Shown here: piece after piece, positions 10,297 through 32,463 of the stretch
How positions within the stretch are numbered: position 1 is the first letter of the stretch
Layout: the number at the start of each line of letters is the position of its first letter
IMG/VR virus record: IMGVR_UViG_3300009180_000041
Coordinates: 1 to 64,000 of that record
Strand: one strand, 5' to 3'
From: a virus
DNA length: 64,000 nt
The notes under the pieces: model-generated
Told to the model about the DNA's origin: nothing
What the model saw: the letters and a program-made list of their open reading frames with translations, nothing else
Databases searched by the model: none
Made by a program: the position numbers and the translations under genes

Positions 10297-10324
10297 GCTT
10301 GTAACTAATAAGTTACGGGCTTTT
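10297..10324 (+). terminator. rho-independent terminator
   Basis: A 10-bp stem (10297-10306 with 10311-10320) is followed by TTTT, with an outer CACTGC/GCGGTG arm. In sequence and design it resembles the hairpin at 9991, so the two look like duplicates flanking the acidic gene. Confidence 0.8.
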
Positions 10325-10334
10325 GGCGGTGACT

Positions 10335-10343
10335 GATTCCTAC
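10335..10343 (+). repeat. GATTCCTAC element, copy 1
   Basis: First copy of the intergenic element, just after the second terminator. Confidence 0.5.
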
Positions 10344-10385
10344 ATTATTAGGTTAGTTTTTAAATTATTTTTTATCTTTTTATTT

Positions 10386-15129: not shown

Positions 15130-16245
15130 ATGGAAAATAATAATAGTGTTTGTTTTGTGGCTCGTATTAATGAGATTAAGTCTATTGAAGGCGCTGATAA
15201 CATTGAGTTAGGTGTTATTGGTGGCTGGAATTGTATTATTAAGAAAGACAGTTATAAAGTAGATGATTTAGTTGTAGTAGCCACTACTGACGCTGTTATA
15301 CCTCAAGAATTAAGTGATAAAATGAATGTTACTAATTACTTGAGAAAAGGTCAGAGAGTAAGAACAGTTAAATTAAGAGGAGTTTATAGTGAGTGTTTGA
15401 TTATTCCAATTGGTTTTATACCTGACAAATACCGTTATGAAGGAGCTGATTGTATGGAGTTAATGAATATCTTTAAATACGAGCCGCCAGTAAGACAAGT
15501 ACAATTAGCTTCAGGTCGTAAACTTAAATACAATCAAAATCCAAACTTTGGAATCTACTATAAATTTCCTAACATCAAGAATGTTAATGGGATGTTTAAT
15601 GAAGAAGACACAGTTGAAGTAACTAGAAAGATTCATGGTACTAATGCTCGTTATGGTATTGTTAGGAAAAACAAATTAAGTGTTTGGGACAAAGTAAGAC
15701 GTTTCTTTGGAGACAAATGGGTTGAATATGAATATGTGTATGGTTCTCATAATGTTGAGAAAGGTAGTGATTCACAAGGTTTCTATGATACTGATGTTTG
15801 GAGAACAATAGCTGAAAAACACAACATTAGAGAAAAGTTATGGAATTTCTTTAAATTAACTAAAACTTTATATAATACTAAAGATGGTATTGTGATTTAT
15901 GGAGAAATTTATGGCCCAGGTATTCAAAAGAATTATGATTATGGTTTGACAGAACTTGAATATGCTGGATTTGATGTTACTATTAATGGTGAATACCAAA
16001 GAACTTCTTTAAGTAATGTGGTTCATGAATGGTTAGGACTTAAAAACGTACCTAGTTTAGAATTTAATGTTTGGTCTGAAGATTTACTTACTAAGTATAC
16101 TTTTGACAAAATTGAAGGAACTAAAGTACCTCACGAAGGTGTTGTTATTAAAAGTGTTGACGGTAATAGACATAAAGTAGCTAAAGTAATTAATCCAGAT
16201 TATTTGATCTACGGAGAAAAACACAATGTAGGAGATTCACATTAA
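15130..16245 (+). CDS. RNA ligase with N-terminal OB domain (Rnl5/DraRnl-like)
   Basis: A 371-residue ligase. Residues 1-~130 form an OB-like domain, placed N-terminally as in Deinococcus RNA ligase. The nucleotidyltransferase core follows, with motif I TRKIHGTNARYG (lysine about 167, the adenylated residue), a motif III-like IVIYGEIYG, motif IV EGVVIKS (about 335) and motif V KVAKVINPDY (about 348). These enzymes seal nicked RNA using ATP. In a phage the usual role is repair of tRNAs cut by host anticodon nucleases. The two tRNA-like RNAs at 18.8 and 23.4 kb make that role attractive here, by inference. Confidence 0.9.
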   Translation: MENNNSVCFVARINEIKSIEGADNIELGVIGGWNCIIKKDSYKVDDLVVVATTDAVIPQELSDKMNVTNYLRKGQRVRTVKLRGVYSECLIIPIGFIPDKYRYEGADCMELMNIFKYEPPVRQVQLASGRKLKYNQNPNFGIYYKFPNIKNVNGMFNEEDTVEVTRKIHGTNARYGIVRKNKLSVWDKVRRFFGDKWVEYEYVYGSHNVEKGSDSQGFYDTDVWRTIAEKHNIREKLWNFFKLTKTLYNTKDGIVIYGEIYGPGIQKNYDYGLTELEYAGFDVTINGEYQRTSLSNVVHEWLGLKNVPSLEFNVWSEDLLTKYTFDKIEGTKVPHEGVVIKSVDGNRHKVAKVINPDYLIYGEKHNVGDSH

Positions 16246-18912: not shown

Positions 18913-18955
18913 ACTAAAATAAAGTAAAATAATTTAGAGATTTTAAGTAAAATAA

Positions 18956-18966
18956 GTTATATTATA
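18956..18966 (+). promoter_or_regulatory. early promoter box, leaderless spacing
   Basis: Exact box; ATG at 18969, 2 bases after it. Confidence 0.7.
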
Positions 18967-18968
18967 GT

Positions 18969-19232
18969 ATGATAAATAATAAAGAATTTGATTTAACAAA
19001 TAAATTTGATAAGTTTATATTTGGTTTAATTGAAAGTAGAGCAAATGGTGATTGGAATACTTATGAAGATGAAGAAATTATTGGATATGATTGGGATTTA
19101 AGAGAAGAAGATTGGTTTGATTTAGATTTTAATTTTGAAAGTTTAGAAAAATATATTGGTGAGGGAATATATTATAATGAAAATTGTAATGTAAATTTAG
19201 AAGATTATAAAATGATTGTAAAAATATATTAA
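18969..19232 (+). CDS. acidic protein, paralogue of the gene at 22704 (87 aa)
   Basis: Strongly acidic and aromatic. Shares with the 22704 protein NKFD-x-FI...NGDW-x-TYED, WDLR-x-x-x-WFDLDF and YIGEGI, so they are clear duplicates. Such D/E/W/Y-rich small proteins can be DNA mimics; that is a guess. Codons are strongly A/T-biased like the flanking duplicates. Confidence 0.65.
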   Translation: MINNKEFDLTNKFDKFIFGLIESRANGDWNTYEDEEIIGYDWDLREEDWFDLDFNFESLEKYIGEGIYYNENCNVNLEDYKMIVKIY

Positions 19233-19262
19233 TAAAGAATTAGAATAATTTAAATAAAATAA

Positions 19263-19273
19263 GTTATATTATA
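19263..19273 (+). promoter_or_regulatory. early promoter box GTTATATTATA
   Basis: Exact box 27 bases upstream of the start at 19301. Confidence 0.7.
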
Positions 19274-19300
19274 GTAATAAAAAAATAAAGATAAAATAAG

Positions 19301-22677: not shown

Positions 22678-22690
22678 GTTAGGTAAATAA

Positions 22691-22701
22691 GTTATATTAT
22701 A
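22691..22701 (+). promoter_or_regulatory. early promoter box, leaderless spacing
   Basis: Exact box; ATG at 22704. Confidence 0.7.
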
Positions 22702-22703
22702 GT

Positions 22704-22979
22704 ATGTTAAATAAGGTTTTAGATTTAAAAAATAAATTTGATTTTTTCATTTATAGTTTAATTGAAAATAGAGAAAATGGTGATTGGGATACTTATGAAG
22801 ATGGAGAAATTATAGAGTATATTTGGGATTTGAGAGATGAAAGTTGGTTTGATTTAGATTTTAGTTTTAATAGTTTAAGTGAGTATATTGGTGAGGGAAT
22901 ATGTTATAGTGATGGTTATAGTGTAGAATTAAAAGATTATAAAATGATTGTTGAGATTGTTTATAAAGAATTAGATTAA
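22704..22979 (+). CDS. acidic protein, paralogue of the gene at 18969 (91 aa)
   Basis: Aligns along its whole length with the 18969 protein (NKFDFFIYSLIENRENGDW, WFDLDFSFNSL, YIGEGI, LKDYKMIVEI). Strongly acidic. Function unknown. Confidence 0.65.
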   Translation: MLNKVLDLKNKFDFFIYSLIENRENGDWDTYEDGEIIEYIWDLRDESWFDLDFSFNSLSEYIGEGICYSDGYSVELKDYKMIVEIVYKELD

Positions 22980-22992
22980 GTTAGTAAAGTAA

Positions 22993-23003
22993 GTTATATT
23001 ATA
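22993..23003 (+). promoter_or_regulatory. early promoter box GTTATATTATA
   Basis: Exact box 14 bases upstream of the start at 23018. Confidence 0.7.
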
Positions 23004-23017
23004 TAAGATAAAAAGTT

Positions 23018-23391: not shown

Positions 23392-23396
23392 TATAT

Positions 23397-23504
23397 AGTC
23401 AGGTGGCGGAATGGAGCGTGGTGTCCACGCTCGTGGTAGACGCTATACTTAAGCAGTTGAAGCTGGGTAATTCAACAATATAGGTTCGAGTCCTATCCTG
23501 ATTA
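23397..23504 (+). tRNA. tRNA-Leu-like gene with hairpin inserted in the D loop
   Basis: Acceptor AGTCAGG (23397-23403) pairs with CCTGATT (23497-23503). The T arm is ATAGG-TTCGAGT-CCTAT (23480-23496), the D stem GCG/CGC. A long variable arm, GTTGAA/TTCAAC, is typical of class II tRNAs. The sequence GGCGGAATGG...GGTAGACGC is that of tRNA-Leu, and CTTAAG suggests anticodon UAA (23450-23452). Two oddities stand out. A perfect 7-bp hairpin, AGCGTGG-TGT-CCACGCT (23415-23431), interrupts the D loop. Only 12-14 bases remain for the anticodon arm, so a normal 5-bp stem is not evident. CCA is not encoded. It is either a modified functional tRNA or a decoy. Confidence 0.6.
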
Positions 23505-23507
23505 CAA

Positions 23508-23882
23508 ATGAAACAATGTAAAAAATGTGGTACAAATAAACCACTAACTGAGTATGGTAATAAAACAGATGAATCAGATGGTTTACACCTATATTGCAAG
23601 ATATGTGTGAATGGAGAATATGATTCTACTAAATATAAAAAATATAAACTGAATAAACACTATGGCATTACACCTGAACAATATGATAATATGTTAACTG
23701 ATCAACAGGGAAAATGTGCCGTATGTGGGGATATAATGACTCAACCACATGTTGACCATTGCCATACTACAGGTAAGGTACGAGGCTTATTATGCATAAA
23801 CTGCAATCAAGGCTTAGGCAAGTTCAAAGACGACACTAATAAACTCCAGCATGCAATTGATTATCTAAACAAATTTAGTTAG
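23508..23882 (+). CDS. endonuclease VII-like HNH nuclease
   Basis: A 124-residue protein. It has an N-terminal CKKC...CKIC zinc ribbon (residues ~4-35) and a recombination endonuclease VII-type core: YGITPEQYDNMLTDQQGKCAVCG then HVDHCHTTGKVRGLLCINCNQGLG. DHCH supplies the beta-beta-alpha-metal catalytic histidine, and the CxxC pairs bind zinc. T4 gp49 of this family resolves Holliday junctions and debranches DNA; short versions like this are also mobile homing-type nucleases. It starts 3 bases after the tRNA-like gene and ends in TAG. Its higher G+C than neighbours fits acquisition. Confidence 0.85.
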   Translation: MKQCKKCGTNKPLTEYGNKTDESDGLHLYCKICVNGEYDSTKYKKYKLNKHYGITPEQYDNMLTDQQGKCAVCGDIMTQPHVDHCHTTGKVRGLLCINCNQGLGKFKDDTNKLQHAIDYLNKFS

Positions 23883-27780: not shown

Positions 27781-28860
27781 ATGGAAAAGGTTTTTGATTT
27801 ACATAAATGGAAAGAAAAACAATTGTTCTTAAATGAACAAGACGAAGACTTTACTGTTGACGCACCTCATGAATGGGACACTATTGATTTAAAAGACGGA
27901 GACCTAATTATGCCTAATATGTGGCAACATAATACTAACACAAACCGTCTTTATGTTGATATTACTAAACCATTAATTGTAAAATACTATAAATCTATAG
28001 TATTTGGTGATGATAATGTGCAACTTCAGGATAGAAATGGAGAATATGAGGTTATTGATGTTGATAAATTTAATCAAACTTACTTAAAACCTGGATTTCA
28101 ATTTAGTGTACCAGGGAATTTAAGTGAAAGTAAGGAAGAAGACTTTACTGTTGACGCTCCTGAGGAATGGGGCTACGAGAATTTTAATGGTAATACTGAA
28201 GATTATACTGATTTAGAAAACTGGGCTAGACCTATTTTAATAAACGCTGGAATTGACCTAGAATACATTGATTACTACTTTATATGGATGAGGAATTGGG
28301 GCGATAGTTTAGAAGGATTTAAAAACATTTCACCTGAACAAATACTTCAAGACTTTGAAGAATGGAAAGAATACAATGTGGATGAGGAATTAGACGAGTC
28401 TACTGAAGAAGACTTCACTGTTGACGCGCCTGACGATTGGGATACTACTGATTTAAGAGCTGGTAGTACTATTACTCCTACTATGTGGAATCAAAATTTA
28501 GGTCCTGACTACAACTCTATAGATGATTGGATTGATGATCCTACTGAAAATCAAATAATTGATGATATTTTAAAAGACGATCGTGGAAAAGTATATGTGA
28601 TTTTCACTGGTGTAAACTCTAATATTCAAAATGTATACACATTAACTGATTTTAATAATTTATTAGATCCTAAATACAAAGTTATAACTAATTTAAATGA
28701 ATCTGAAGACGACTTTAATGTTGATGCACCTGATGATTGGAATAAAGAATACTTAACAGTAGGCAGTATTATTAAACCTGAAATGTGGGATCGTGAAAAA
28801 GCTATTAAAGCATTTGATTGGTGGGACGATGAAGAAAGAAAATGGTTAGATTTACCTTAG
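27781..28860 (+). CDS. repeat polyprotein, 5' part, repeats 1-4
   Basis: A 359-residue open frame ending at TAG 28858-28860. After a tag-like start (LHKWKEKQLFLNE) come repeats of about 100 residues. Each opens with L-x-E, an acidic run, then (F/W)(T/N/S)V(D/E)AP-x-(D/E)W and often TITPxMW. Each closes with LLKPGY-x-I-like text. Junctions seen here: FLNEQ, LSESK, LDEST, LNESE. The same frame continues without other stops through repeat 4 into the following gene, so the TAG splits one long coding unit. No enzymatic motif is visible. The junctions match the (L/I)xE sites cut by T4 prohead protease. Confidence 0.75.
   Translation: MEKVFDLHKWKEKQLFLNEQDEDFTVDAPHEWDTIDLKDGDLIMPNMWQHNTNTNRLYVDITKPLIVKYYKSIVFGDDNVQLQDRNGEYEVIDVDKFNQTYLKPGFQFSVPGNLSESKEEDFTVDAPEEWGYENFNGNTEDYTDLENWARPILINAGIDLEYIDYYFIWMRNWGDSLEGFKNISPEQILQDFEEWKEYNVDEELDESTEEDFTVDAPDDWDTTDLRAGSTITPTMWNQNLGPDYNSIDDWIDDPTENQIIDDILKDDRGKVYVIFTGVNSNIQNVYTLTDFNNLLDPKYKVITNLNESEDDFNVDAPDDWNKEYLTVGSIIKPEMWDREKAIKAFDWWDDEERKWLDLP
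28858..28860 (+). other. in-frame TAG interrupting repeat 4
   Basis: The codons before (KWLDLP) and after (EILRFTEVGNVRF) the TAG join smoothly into a normal repeat. Elsewhere TAG ends only a few early or minus-strand genes (18494, 23882, 24703, 11353, 16418) and no other late gene. Confidence 0.7.
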
Positions 28861-28923
28861 GAAATTCTTCGATTTACTGAAGTTGGAAATGTTAGATTTG
28901 CTATAAATGATGAATATTCTAGA

Positions 28924-31900
28924 ATGTTTGGTTTAGATTTTATCAATACGGTACTAAAACCAGGATTTGAAATTACTAAAGAATTAAATGAGTCTGATGA
29001 ATGGTCTGTTGAAGCACCTAAAGATTGGGATAATATTGAATTAAAACAAGGTAGTACTATTACTCCTGAAATGGTAGATATGTCTAATATTCCTGAAAAT
29101 AATTTATACTGGTGGGAAGAAAAGATTATAGAATTAAATGTAGGAAAGATTTGGAAGTTAGATAAAGAATACATTGAATTAAAATATAAAATAACAGATG
29201 ATGAAGATCATAATTATATTTTAATGTATACAATTGACTTTTTAGAAATTTTAAAACCAGGTTATGTATTAGTTTTATCTGATGGAACCGTTTTAGAAAA
29301 ACAAGATTTAAATGAATCTACTGAAGATTTTACTGTTGACGCACCTCAAGATTGGGATGTGGAAATGTTAACAGTAGGTAGTATTATTACACCTGAAATG
29401 TGGATACCCAATATTGAAAGTGAGTTTACTGATACCTGGAATTGGGAAACAGGTTTAGACATAACTTCAATACCTTGGTTAATTACAGTTGTTCGTAAAA
29501 ATGAAGTAGTCTTAAGAAATAATGATGTGTATGGTGAGATGATATTTGGTTTTATAAATGAAATAAATAATTGTTTACAGCCTGAATATAGAATTACTAA
29601 TGACTTAAATGAATCTATTGAAGACGAGTTTAATGTTGAAGCACCTGATGATTGGGGTACATTAAATATAGGTGATCGTATTACTCCTAATATGTGGAAT
29701 ACAGATATTAAACTTAAAACACCTGGTAGTAGGATTATAAAAAAAACTTTAAATAATATGAAACAATCTACTTGGACTATTGAAGATCTACCATTAGATG
29801 ATTTAGATCATGTTTATTTATCAACCCCAGGTGATGAAACAATTATTAGTATAGATCTTTTAAATAATAGTTTAAAACCAGAATATCAAATTTATAATCT
29901 TAAAAAACTAAGAGAATCTACTGATGAATTTAATGTGGTAGCACCTAAAGAATGGGACAATACAGAATTGACTGTAGGAAGTACTATTACACCTGAAATG
30001 TGGAAACCTAATGCACAATGGATGTTTTCTAGTATTGATGTTTCAAAACCTATAACCATAGGTAAGAAAAGTAATCCAAGAATATATTTGTATCTTACTG
30101 ATGTAAAAGGAAGAGGAACTCATATTAACGCAGGTACTTTAAATAAATATTTAAAACGTAAGTATCGAGTTGTAGATGATGAAGCATTATATGAATCTGA
30201 AGACGAGTTTAATGTAGAAGCACCTGACGATTGGAATGTAAAAGAACTAGGAGTAGGTGATGAGGTTACTTGGGATATGTTTAAAACTGAAGAATTAGCT
30301 GACCATTGGATGGATGATTATGATGTAAAAATTATTAAAAATATTTATACTCGCCCAATTCACCCAAGTGCTATAGTATCTTTAACAAAACCTAATGGTG
30401 AGTCTGTTGGTAGTTGGTGGTTAGACAGTGTTGAAAGAGATTTAAAATCTGAATATAAAATTAAAGTACCTGACAATATGAATGAAAATGAAGACGAGTG
30501 GTCAGTTGAAGCTCCTAAAGATTGGGACAATTTTGACATTGAAATTAGAATGTCTAATACATATACTTTTTTCAATATTGAAACTGATGATGAAGCTACA
30601 GTAGATGAAGTAAAACTAGTTAAAACAAACTCAGATGAATTAATAAAGTATTTTGGTGATAATATTCCTTATGATTCAAGTCAAATTGAAGATTTACTTT
30701 ATGAAAAATACTTTAGAGACGATGATTTACAGGATTTTATAAATCAAAATGAAGTTGTTGAAGAAATACCTGATGAATTATATGGTGATGATTGGGACAA
30801 TGAATGGGATGGTGTTGATTTTGATGTTAAAATAGTTGGTAAAGTAAATGAAGTAGAAGATGAATGGTCTGTTGAGGCACCTCGTGATTGGGATTACCAA
30901 CAATTAAGTTTAGATGATACTATTACTCCTGAAATGTGGGATTTAAATAATCCTGAATTGGAAGACTACATTGATGATCCTACTGAAGATTGGAAAATTT
31001 TAGAACTGTATGCTAGTCGTGTAGGTAGTGATGCTTCAATTTTTATTCAATCACCTACTGGAGGTGAATTAGGTACTCAAATGGAAGAAATAAATAAACT
31101 TTTAAAACCAGGATATAAGATAGTTGTTAATAAATTAAATGAAGTAGATGAAGATGAATTTAATGTTGAAGCACCTGTAGACTGGAATAAAGAATACTTA
31201 ACAGCAGGAGATATTATTACACCTAGTATGATAAAACCTAAATTACCTATTGATTATAGATTTTACAAAAATAATACTAAAATTAAAAAAATAATGCCAC
31301 AAAGACATGGAGATGGAATTTTAATTAATACTGTGTTTGTAGATCAAGATGGACATGATCTACCATTTACTGATGACTTTCATTGGATTGAAGAATGGAA
31401 TCATAAATTAATAGAACCATATACAATTAGTCCTGAAAAGAATTTTGGTAGTAGTTTAAATGAATTACTTGATGATGAAGATGAGTTTAATGTAGAAGCA
31501 CCTAAAGAATGGGATACCACTAATTTAGGAATAGGTGATATAATTGAGCCTTTTATGATTGAACCTAAAGCTCAAATTGATACTTACATAGAGAATATTC
31601 CTAAAATTTTAAAATTGATGAAAAAATATCCAACTGAAATTACAGATATTTATAATGAATTCAAGGGAATACAGTTGAAACTTCCACAATGGTCACCACT
31701 TAAATTTACTATGAAATTATCAGATATACAAAGTATTTTAAAACCAGGATATGAAATTAGTAAACCAAGTACTTTAGATGAAGTAGATGAAGATGAGTTC
31801 GATGTTGATGCACCTAAAGAATGGGACATTAAAGTACTCACTACAGGAGACATTTTAACTAATGAACATTTAGGAACTGGTGGTAATACTGCTTATAAAA

Positions 31901-32463
31901 TCATTGGATTTGAAGATAATAGAGTTAAAATTGAAAAAGGAAAAATACTTAAAAGAGATACAGGAGATATTTTTGTTCCAAATACTCCATACATAACAAC
32001 AATACCTTTAAGTACACTTCAAAGAAGACTAAATCCTGGTTATGTTATAGAACCTCCTACTACTAAACTAAGTGAACTTTTAAAAGTAGATGATGAATTT
32101 GATGTAGTAGCACCTGATGAATGGAATGAATATGATAAAAACATAAGAGTAGTTATTGAAGCTGAAGTTTTTTCAGTTGATAATACTAATAATGCTAGTG
32201 AAGAATTAAGATGGACTACTGATAAAATTATTAATATTAATGAATTAGAAAATTATTCTTATGATTTTAAACCATTTTTAGGAAGTCCTCTAGATGTAAA
32301 AGCTTTAAACCAATGGGTTGATACTATTGAATTTGACTGGTGGGACTTTATGTTGAATGAAGGATATGAACCTCATATAATTTATACTGATCCTAATTTT
32401 GAAGAAGGTGATGAAATTGAAGACATGAGTATAGTACATAAAGAGCTACTTCCTGCAGATTAA
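28924..32463 (+). CDS. repeat polyprotein, 3' part, repeats 4-15
   Basis: A 1179-residue frame in the same phase as the upstream gene; the coding frame in fact reopens at 28861, directly after the TAG. It holds the end of repeat 4 and eleven more repeats, with junctions such as LNESD, LNEST, LNESI, LRES, LYES, MNEN, VNEV, LNEV, LNEL, LDEV and LSEL before each DEFNVEAP-type motif. Repeat bodies are strongly diverged while the junction and V(D/E)AP-x-xW block stay constant. The whole protein is very acidic. No initiation signal is evident at ATG 28924, so read-through or one broken gene is as likely as internal initiation. Confidence 0.75.
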   Translation: MFGLDFINTVLKPGFEITKELNESDEWSVEAPKDWDNIELKQGSTITPEMVDMSNIPENNLYWWEEKIIELNVGKIWKLDKEYIELKYKITDDEDHNYILMYTIDFLEILKPGYVLVLSDGTVLEKQDLNESTEDFTVDAPQDWDVEMLTVGSIITPEMWIPNIESEFTDTWNWETGLDITSIPWLITVVRKNEVVLRNNDVYGEMIFGFINEINNCLQPEYRITNDLNESIEDEFNVEAPDDWGTLNIGDRITPNMWNTDIKLKTPGSRIIKKTLNNMKQSTWTIEDLPLDDLDHVYLSTPGDETIISIDLLNNSLKPEYQIYNLKKLRESTDEFNVVAPKEWDNTELTVGSTITPEMWKPNAQWMFSSIDVSKPITIGKKSNPRIYLYLTDVKGRGTHINAGTLNKYLKRKYRVVDDEALYESEDEFNVEAPDDWNVKELGVGDEVTWDMFKTEELADHWMDDYDVKIIKNIYTRPIHPSAIVSLTKPNGESVGSWWLDSVERDLKSEYKIKVPDNMNENEDEWSVEAPKDWDNFDIEIRMSNTYTFFNIETDDEATVDEVKLVKTNSDELIKYFGDNIPYDSSQIEDLLYEKYFRDDDLQDFINQNEVVEEIPDELYGDDWDNEWDGVDFDVKIVGKVNEVEDEWSVEAPRDWDYQQLSLDDTITPEMWDLNNPELEDYIDDPTEDWKILELYASRVGSDASIFIQSPTGGELGTQMEEINKLLKPGYKIVVNKLNEVDEDEFNVEAPVDWNKEYLTAGDIITPSMIKPKLPIDYRFYKNNTKIKKIMPQRHGDGILINTVFVDQDGHDLPFTDDFHWIEEWNHKLIEPYTISPEKNFGSSLNELLDDEDEFNVEAPKEWDTTNLGIGDIIEPFMIEPKAQIDTYIENIPKILKLMKKYPTEITDIYNEFKGIQLKLPQWSPLKFTMKLSDIQSILKPGYEISKPSTLDEVDEDEFDVDAPKEWDIKVLTTGDILTNEHLGTGGNTAYKIIGFEDNRVKIEKGKILKRDTGDIFVPNTPYITTIPLSTLQRRLNPGYVIEPPTTKLSELLKVDDEFDVVAPDEWNEYDKNIRVVIEAEVFSVDNTNNASEELRWTTDKIININELENYSYDFKPFLGSPLDVKALNQWVDTIEFDWWDFMLNEGYEPHIIYTDPNFEEGDEIEDMSIVHKELLPAD

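Follow-up and report, generated by a model that had tools for sequence, protein, structure and literature searches.

tmRNA retains a tRNA-like end domain, whereas other RNA, with pseudoknots among it, takes the place of the anticodon part. The bacterial Y RNA YrlA is a non-decoding RNA, in which a tRNA-like domain is joined to one conserved Ro-binding partner module. In engineered tRNA scaffolds, foreign RNA takes the place of the anticodon arm and the ends are matured in a tRNA-like manner. Phage tRNA islands are usually read as aids to translation, and odd members are dismissed as pseudogenes or as tRNAs with unknown anticodon. We know of no natural tRNA shell with interchangeable cores that are swapped at fixed loci.

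Some phage tRNAs act in counter-defence. The tRNA-Tyr of phage T5 counters retron-Eco7, a tRNA-cutting defence (PMC11555353), and tRNA-Tyr of phage T6, amplified by the homing endonuclease SegB, counters Septu, which cuts the variable loop (PMC13096335). The 'tRNA-like sequences' of phage XacN1 are mostly canonical tRNAs (PMC5852040).

Here we describe an element in a window of 64,000 bases (the whole stretch of DNA analysed), taken from an IMG/VR virus record of 64,983 bases. In the minimum free energy (MFE) fold, plus-strand positions 23397-23504 form a tRNA-Leu-like shell with acceptor, D and T arms and a hairpin in the D loop. The fold comprises the 7-bp acceptor stem, the D arm and the T arm with a TTCRA loop by which tRNA-Leu likeness was judged. 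Its features are the following, with bases inside the element given in standard tRNA numbering:

23397-23504, plus strand: the complete tRNA-shelled RNA, with the discriminator base A73 as its last position (sequence, fold and homologues)
23397-23403, plus strand: acceptor 5′ strand AGTCAGG (pairs with 23497-23503; the acceptors of relatives covary)
23404-23412, plus strand: T8, G9, D-stem 5′ strand, A14, A15 and T16, TGGCGGAAT (sequence and fold; the tRNA numbering is established knowledge)
23413-23434, plus strand: 22-nt D-loop insert (absent from relatives with the same interior; in one of 23 copies)
23414-23432, plus strand: 8-bp hairpin GAGCGTGG-TGT-CCACGCTC inside the insert (fold; covariation in ten window-type hairpins)
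23435-23443, plus strand: G18, G19 to D-stem 3′ strand, GGTAGACGC (sequence, fold and relatives)
23444-23479, plus strand: interior replacing anticodon and variable arms, TATACTTAAGCAGTTGAAGCTGGGTAATTCAACAAT (fold; 23 of 23 copies lie in tRNA-like shells)
23480-23496, plus strand: T arm ATAGG-TTCGAGT-CCTAT (sequence, fold and Rfam scan)
23497-23505, plus strand: acceptor 3′ strand CCTGATT, A73 and encoded C74 (sequence and fold; AC comes next in most relatives)
23508-23882, plus strand: neighbouring ORF of 124 aa, endonuclease VII-like HNH protein (phrog_2633, E 8e-41), probably not part of the element

The MFE of the element is -35.4 kcal/mol (z -2.3), and four of 200 shuffled sequences fold equally well. 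The acceptor pairs 23396-23403 with 23497-23504, the D stem includes 23406-23408/23441-23443, and the T arm occupies 23480-23496. The original prediction placed a 7-bp hairpin in the D loop; the hairpin is found at this place, with 8 bp in the fold (23414-23421/23425-23432, loop TGT). By comparison with insertless relatives (GGAATGGTAGACGC), the insert comprises the 22 nt at 23413-23434, its edges being uncertain by 2 nt due to a repeated GG. The D arm reads D stem, A14-A15-T16, insert, G18-G19 and 3′ D strand. An anticodon arm with 5 bp and a 7-nt loop is absent from the MFE fold. A 6-bp hairpin is formed at 23456-23461/23471-23476, and the 12 nt at 23444-23455 are all that lies between it and the D stem; they form no arm of their own, and their first two bases pair with bases 8 and 9. 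The earlier description of an anticodon arm of only 12-14 bases is better worded as no anticodon arm, with 12 nt in front of a 6-bp hairpin.

Standard gene finding passes over this element. ARAGORN reports no tRNA gene in the 64-kb window, and no tmRNA there or in 24 relative loci. The Rfam tRNA model reaches 16.9 bits at the element compared to a cut-off of 29 and covers the 3′ part only, and no other Rfam family reaches its cut-off there. In a scan of 22 loci, the only matches were tRNA and a single freshwater-1 RNA, which lies outside the elements. Some shells score above the Rfam tRNA cut-off, and a few may therefore be real tRNAs. In blastn searches of 50,697 phage records with the window element, a six-element array and two other elements, short tRNA-arm matches or none were obtained, and one element compared with plasmids gave tRNA-like matches only. 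A scan of genome contigs yielded four stretches, all rejected on inspection, since one was coding and the other three were normal tRNA-Leu genes in which the D arm is duplicated.

Relatives were found in IMG/VR by pattern search. A gapped pattern of the D-arm flanks retrieved 11 stretches and a broader pattern 101. A perfect T arm follows downstream in 59 of the 75 distinct D-arm pattern matches, and in 54 of these 59 the acceptor forms 6-7 of its 7 pairs (all seven in 51); five fail this test. By eye, the 16 matches without a perfect T arm are a mixture of coding chance matches (e.g. L099, L100, L112) and others which are probably genuine but truncated or degenerate (L130, L132, L142, L010). 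The 24 distinct acceptors other than AGTCAGG form 6.58 of 7 pairs on average, compared to 4.10 with permuted 3′ halves (maximum 4.96 in 2000 permutations), which argues that acceptor pairing is maintained by compensatory change. A finder requiring acceptor and T arm listed at least 256 distinct shell elements with 234 distinct interiors from IMG/VR loci; since it accepts acceptors with at least 6 of 7 pairs, acceptor pairing among these 256, or the 196 with AGTCAGG acceptor, is not independent, and the unfiltered test is the set of 75 matches. Shells lacking a D insert are common as well, in at least 120 IMG/VR stretches.

A canonical anticodon arm is present in 18 of the 256 listed elements, a list in which a few entries are over-long artefacts and some are canonical tRNA-Leu genes. 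Among the listed elements with an AGTCAGG acceptor, three of 196 carry an anticodon arm with 5 bp, a 7-nt loop and T33, and 193 do not. The missing arm is therefore a trait of the family and not local damage, and the changed role that the original prediction read from gain in one arm and loss in another is supported by the loss in these 193 elements. The related question, whether a normal tRNA-Leu would be left after removal of the insert, is answered in part: natural relatives without insert are also devoid of an anticodon arm. At position 48, the base with which the interior ends, T is present in 216 of 238 elements without canonical anticodon arm, which would be expected from a conserved A15-U48 elbow pair. 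Interior length ranges from 13 nt to more than 100 nt among the elements listed, and 99 of 227 interiors have no relative in the set.

A role in translation is unlikely, since there is no anticodon arm. A tRNA that remains active in decoding with a changed anticodon or a longer loop, as suppressor or frameshift tRNA, would suit the labels that ARAGORN gives to insertless relatives, tRNA-Leu(aag) for some and tRNA-??? for others. It would also suit L096 (a 376-kb contig), in which an element at 2197-2289 of the reverse complement combines CTA in a short loop with a D-loop hairpin and encoded CCA and is possibly suppressor-like. Nevertheless, the scarcity of canonical arms among the AGTCAGG elements, the blank ARAGORN result at the window element and the normal tRNAs with other acceptors which contigs with shells also carry make decoding highly improbable.

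Introns in the D loop and the anticodon region of a pre-tRNA, to be spliced to a canonical tRNA-Leu, could likewise be imagined for a class II-like shell, and the window does encode an RNA ligase-like protein (15130-16245; phrog_968, E 1e-56; about 25-29% identity to the best-listed phage ligases). Interiors of 13 to 24 nt, however, are too short to contain an anticodon arm plus a variable arm, the relatives without D insert have no such arm either, and no common intron boundary was seen among the cores by eye. We consider splicing very improbable.

Compared with phage tRNA-Leu and other class II tRNAs (RF00005), the shells share the acceptor, D and T arms, the elbow bases and A73, and some of them sit in phage tRNA islands among normal tRNAs. 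They differ by the missing anticodon arm, by the D-loop hairpin in many of them and by interchangeable cores; also, most canonical tRNA-Leu genes in these contigs have G1 acceptors whereas the shells have AGTCAGG. As in tmRNA, a tRNA-like end domain is combined with a replaced anticodon part, but the shells keep the D stem and have many unrelated cores, and ARAGORN calls no tmRNA. YrlA is similar in that it does not decode and joins a tRNA-like domain to a further module; in the shells, by contrast, a swappable core lies inside the tRNA shell, and no such Rfam match occurred in the 22 loci. Engineered tRNA scaffolds also hold other RNA in place of the anticodon arm, but are laboratory constructs, whereas the shells would be natural and diversified. 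The counter-defence tRNAs of T5 and T6 resemble the shells as phage-encoded tRNA genes, that of T6 adjoining a homing endonuclease gene; they are full tRNAs which replace or outlast the cut ones, whereas the shell RNAs have no decoding arm. The parts, tRNA shell and pseudoknots, are known; their combination with cores swapped at fixed loci is new to our knowledge. No description of such elements was found in the open-access literature, in a search with few subscription papers and slight coverage of bioRxiv, and a term search in a paper on huge phages (PMC7162821) gave no match.

The interiors behave as units. A 24-mer of the window interior, TATACTTAAGCAGTTGAAGCTGGG, occurs in 23 IMG/VR stretches, in each of them inside a shell with T arm and seven acceptor pairs, and in seven acceptor backgrounds. 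Only one of the 23 copies has a D insert, L004, which is the window phage's own near-copy (99.95% identity over 12.7 kb). The interior hardly varies, so that its structure has no covariation support. The search required an exact match, and variation inside the 24-mer lies outside its scope. That 23 stretches have nearly the same interior may be due to recent spread no less than to selection.

A second type of core contains a pseudoknot, the pattern of which was found in 33 stretches with 27 distinct sequences. On inspection, 26 of the 27 lie in shells, with or without D inserts, and L335 looks like coding sequence. The alignment comprises 23 of the 24 rows listed, L339 having been left out due to an extraction shifted by one base. 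In these 23 copies, 95.6% of cells are paired, compared to at most 62.3% when the partners are slid by up to 3 columns. There are 42 double-change cells against 12.9 in shuffled alignments, and the covariation score is 0.323 against 0.133; for paired cells, double-change cells and covariation score, none of 500 shuffles is as high. The number of pairs with a double change and that of further pair types are not clearly above the shuffles (56 and 171 of 500). RNAalifold also finds the covarying first stem. The crossing helix is invariant except for one G-U cell, and complementarity is its sole evidence. No Rfam family other than tRNA is above cut-off for this core (L329 core).

The D-loop hairpin is a real, selected module. 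From 54 good elements, 31 non-redundant D inserts were obtained, with a median z of -2.25 and 16 of 31 at p<0.05 against dinucleotide shuffles. In ten window-like hairpins with nine distinct arm pairs (10 of 12 rows, without L098, which is nearly identical to L002, and L175, judged a chance match), 59 of 63 pairs form, compared to a mean of 45 and a maximum of 55 in 5000 permutations; the arms were taken from each fold as the alignment was misregistered, which favours pairing, and the permutation removes this bias only partly. In the elements found by our patterns, the insert separates the GGAAT part of the D arm from its GGTAG part. It sits just 5′ of G18-G19, a place of natural length variation in tRNAs. 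At this site the insert should leave the elbow contacts free to form. One insert type of 34 nt is found in 21 elements with nine interiors, another in seven elements with five interiors.

Decay of a tRNA gene into a pseudogene, with a hairpin arising by chance or from a transposon beside a homing endonuclease, might be suspected from a single odd element in the window with an HNH gene 3 nt downstream. Against this stand the paired shells around all 23 interior copies, the covariation of both acceptor and D hairpin, and L007, which has the hairpin closest to that of the window (one loop base differs) together with a quite different interior. Of all readings weighed, we give this one the least credit.

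The endonuclease VII-like gene expected just downstream is present, its ORF starting at 23508, 3 nt after A73. The mobile-element footprint that was considered along with it is not supported as proposed: the D inserts are many unrelated hairpins, and HNH is not a general neighbour, as endonuclease and homing-endonuclease profiles are matched by only one of 19 other downstream proteins tested (L107). Insertion of a mobile element into a tRNA gene was likewise rejected. With up to 3 mismatches allowed, the insert hairpin occurs nowhere else in the window (0 in shuffles), 31 of the inserts in 54 elements are non-redundant, and any duplication amounts to GG at most. Processing of a leader, suggested by the short gap to the HNH start codon, was dropped as well, since downstream ORFs are no closer than random positions (within 40 nt in 55 of 204 elements vs 29% of 2000 random positions). 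The same comparison bears on the idea that the shell is punctuation, marking sites for tRNA-end nucleases in polycistronic phage transcripts with the core as filler. The kept tRNA elbow and the location of the window element on the same strand as the neighbouring genes would agree with this. A filler, though, would not hold a covarying pseudoknot, nor would the same 24-mer (demanded as exact by the search) be expected in seven acceptor backgrounds, and we regard punctuation as quite unlikely.

Modules are what moves: D inserts and interiors recombine between shells. At one locus, represented by L196, L269, L094, L111 and L153, the 400 nt upstream are 91-92% identical; downstream, 400 nt are 89-92% identical in the first four, and L153 has a shorter homologous part with 86-95%. 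Between these flanks, near-same shell ends enclose four unrelated interiors, one of them that of the window, and a D insert is carried by L094 and L111 but not by L196, L269 and L153. A tandem pair of elements occurs at this locus in L153 and L174. Altogether, homologous flanks on both sides combined with interiors less than 60% alike are seen in 45 element pairs; some flank groups are chained via dispersed repeats, so that we base the claim of swapping on the one locus alone.

Such exchange would also be produced by selfish cassettes, for which the shell is a recombination platform that spreads RNA modules between phages with little benefit for the phage. The occurrence of nearly the same interior in 23 stretches whose flanks are for the most part unrelated, and swaps within one locus between shell ends alike enough for homologous exchange, are in line with that. 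On the other hand, compensatory change keeps cores and D hairpins structured, which needs selection on the RNA itself, and no mobilising gene is found consistently beside the elements; selfish spread thus appears unlikely to us.

The explanation we prefer, and hold to be rather probable as a whole, is a gene for a small non-decoding RNA with a tRNA-Leu-like shell and exchangeable parts, which acts in trans. Its anatomical part, that is shell, missing arm and modules, is directly observed, and we are highly confident of it; the functional part, trans action as mimic or decoy, is by analogy and tentative. In this explanation, what the shell preserves of a tRNA is the acceptor stem, the D/T elbow (A14, A15, G18, G19, T48 and T-loop) and the encoded A73-C74. 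An interchangeable structured core stands in for the decoding half, with a hairpin in the D loop before G18-G19 as an optional second module. The RNA is presumably made and its ends matured in a tRNA-like way, giving a stable tRNA-shaped RNA that would not decode and would act in trans on factors handling tRNAs. A conserved elbow and acceptor around cores that can be exchanged would suit an RNA treated like a tRNA while being aimed elsewhere. By analogy, the most likely role would be that of a mimic or decoy for host defences that target tRNAs, or of a carrier displaying the core to a host target, and an arms race might drive the core exchange. A non-decoding mimic could be a natural further step from phage tRNAs that counter tRNA-cutting defences, a speculative proposal. 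In a broader form, for which we see a reasonable chance short of even, uncultured phages, at least some of them of Bacteroidota, would have in common a stock of exchangeable structured RNA modules carried by a tRNA shell; this shell would provide maturation, stability and entry to tRNA-handling proteins, and core and D-loop modules, swapped at fixed loci, would set the target.

If the elements are working RNAs, a part of the phage tRNA islands is a hypervariable arsenal of small RNAs, and the laboratory tRNA scaffold has a counterpart in nature. One could then test directly whether non-decoding tRNA mimics are a phage response to tRNA-cutting defences. The common shell is a handle for finding more elements in metagenomes and existing RNA-Seq data.

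Shell elements often form arrays. In 14 virus records, picked via the loci and not a random sample, one to eight shell starts per record were found, on a single strand in 13 of 14, and the reversed-pattern control gave none in all records; in G003, an exact match and a one-mismatch match are on opposite strands. The window phage has a single shell element. In L180, six elements lie within about 1 kb, in an RNA island also containing normal tRNAs and, at 10301-10363, a freshwater-1 RNA (RF02979, just above cut-off).

Among 205 distinct upstream sequences, 14 have the motif TAnnTTTG, which corresponds to the -7 promoter element of Bacteroidota, at a distance of 9-16 nt, compared to 0.9 expected. 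The 14 represent about five independent flank groups; the motif is absent from the 80 nt upstream of the window element. The baseplate protein of the window shares 42% identity with its counterpart in Flavobacterium phage immuto; for one from Microcystis phage Mel-JY01 the value is 43%. Some carriers are likely to infect Bacteroidota, which is unproven for the window phage. None of three phage records with a related baseplate gene contains the shell pattern, and a loose 14-mer with 2 mismatches matched in the 484-kb record alone, with three matches not above the reversed control.

Several further observations were made. RNAs with a class I D arm, or with no clear D arm, can have the AGTCAGG/CCTGACT acceptor too (L180:10609-10682, L248, L302), and the acceptor may be the most conserved part of the shell RNAs. 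Some interiors in L094, L180 and L297 hold an extra T-arm-like hairpin (e.g. CCCGTTCGAGTCGGG), as though pieces of another tRNA had been nested in them. Upstream flanks in L180, L255, L308, L144 and L253 share a recurring spacer ending near ACAGAGGA.TTCTCA.CCTCAACAT, which may be another structured RNA. Elsewhere in the window, the proteins encoded at 28924-32463 and 27781-28860 have no homologues in the phage records, and the former, an ORF of 1179 aa, has no PHROGs match; most of the many repeats of about 100 bases at 28640-31220 lie within it. The stretches 18950-19285 and 22685-23014 are paralogous, with 82% identity over 336 bases.
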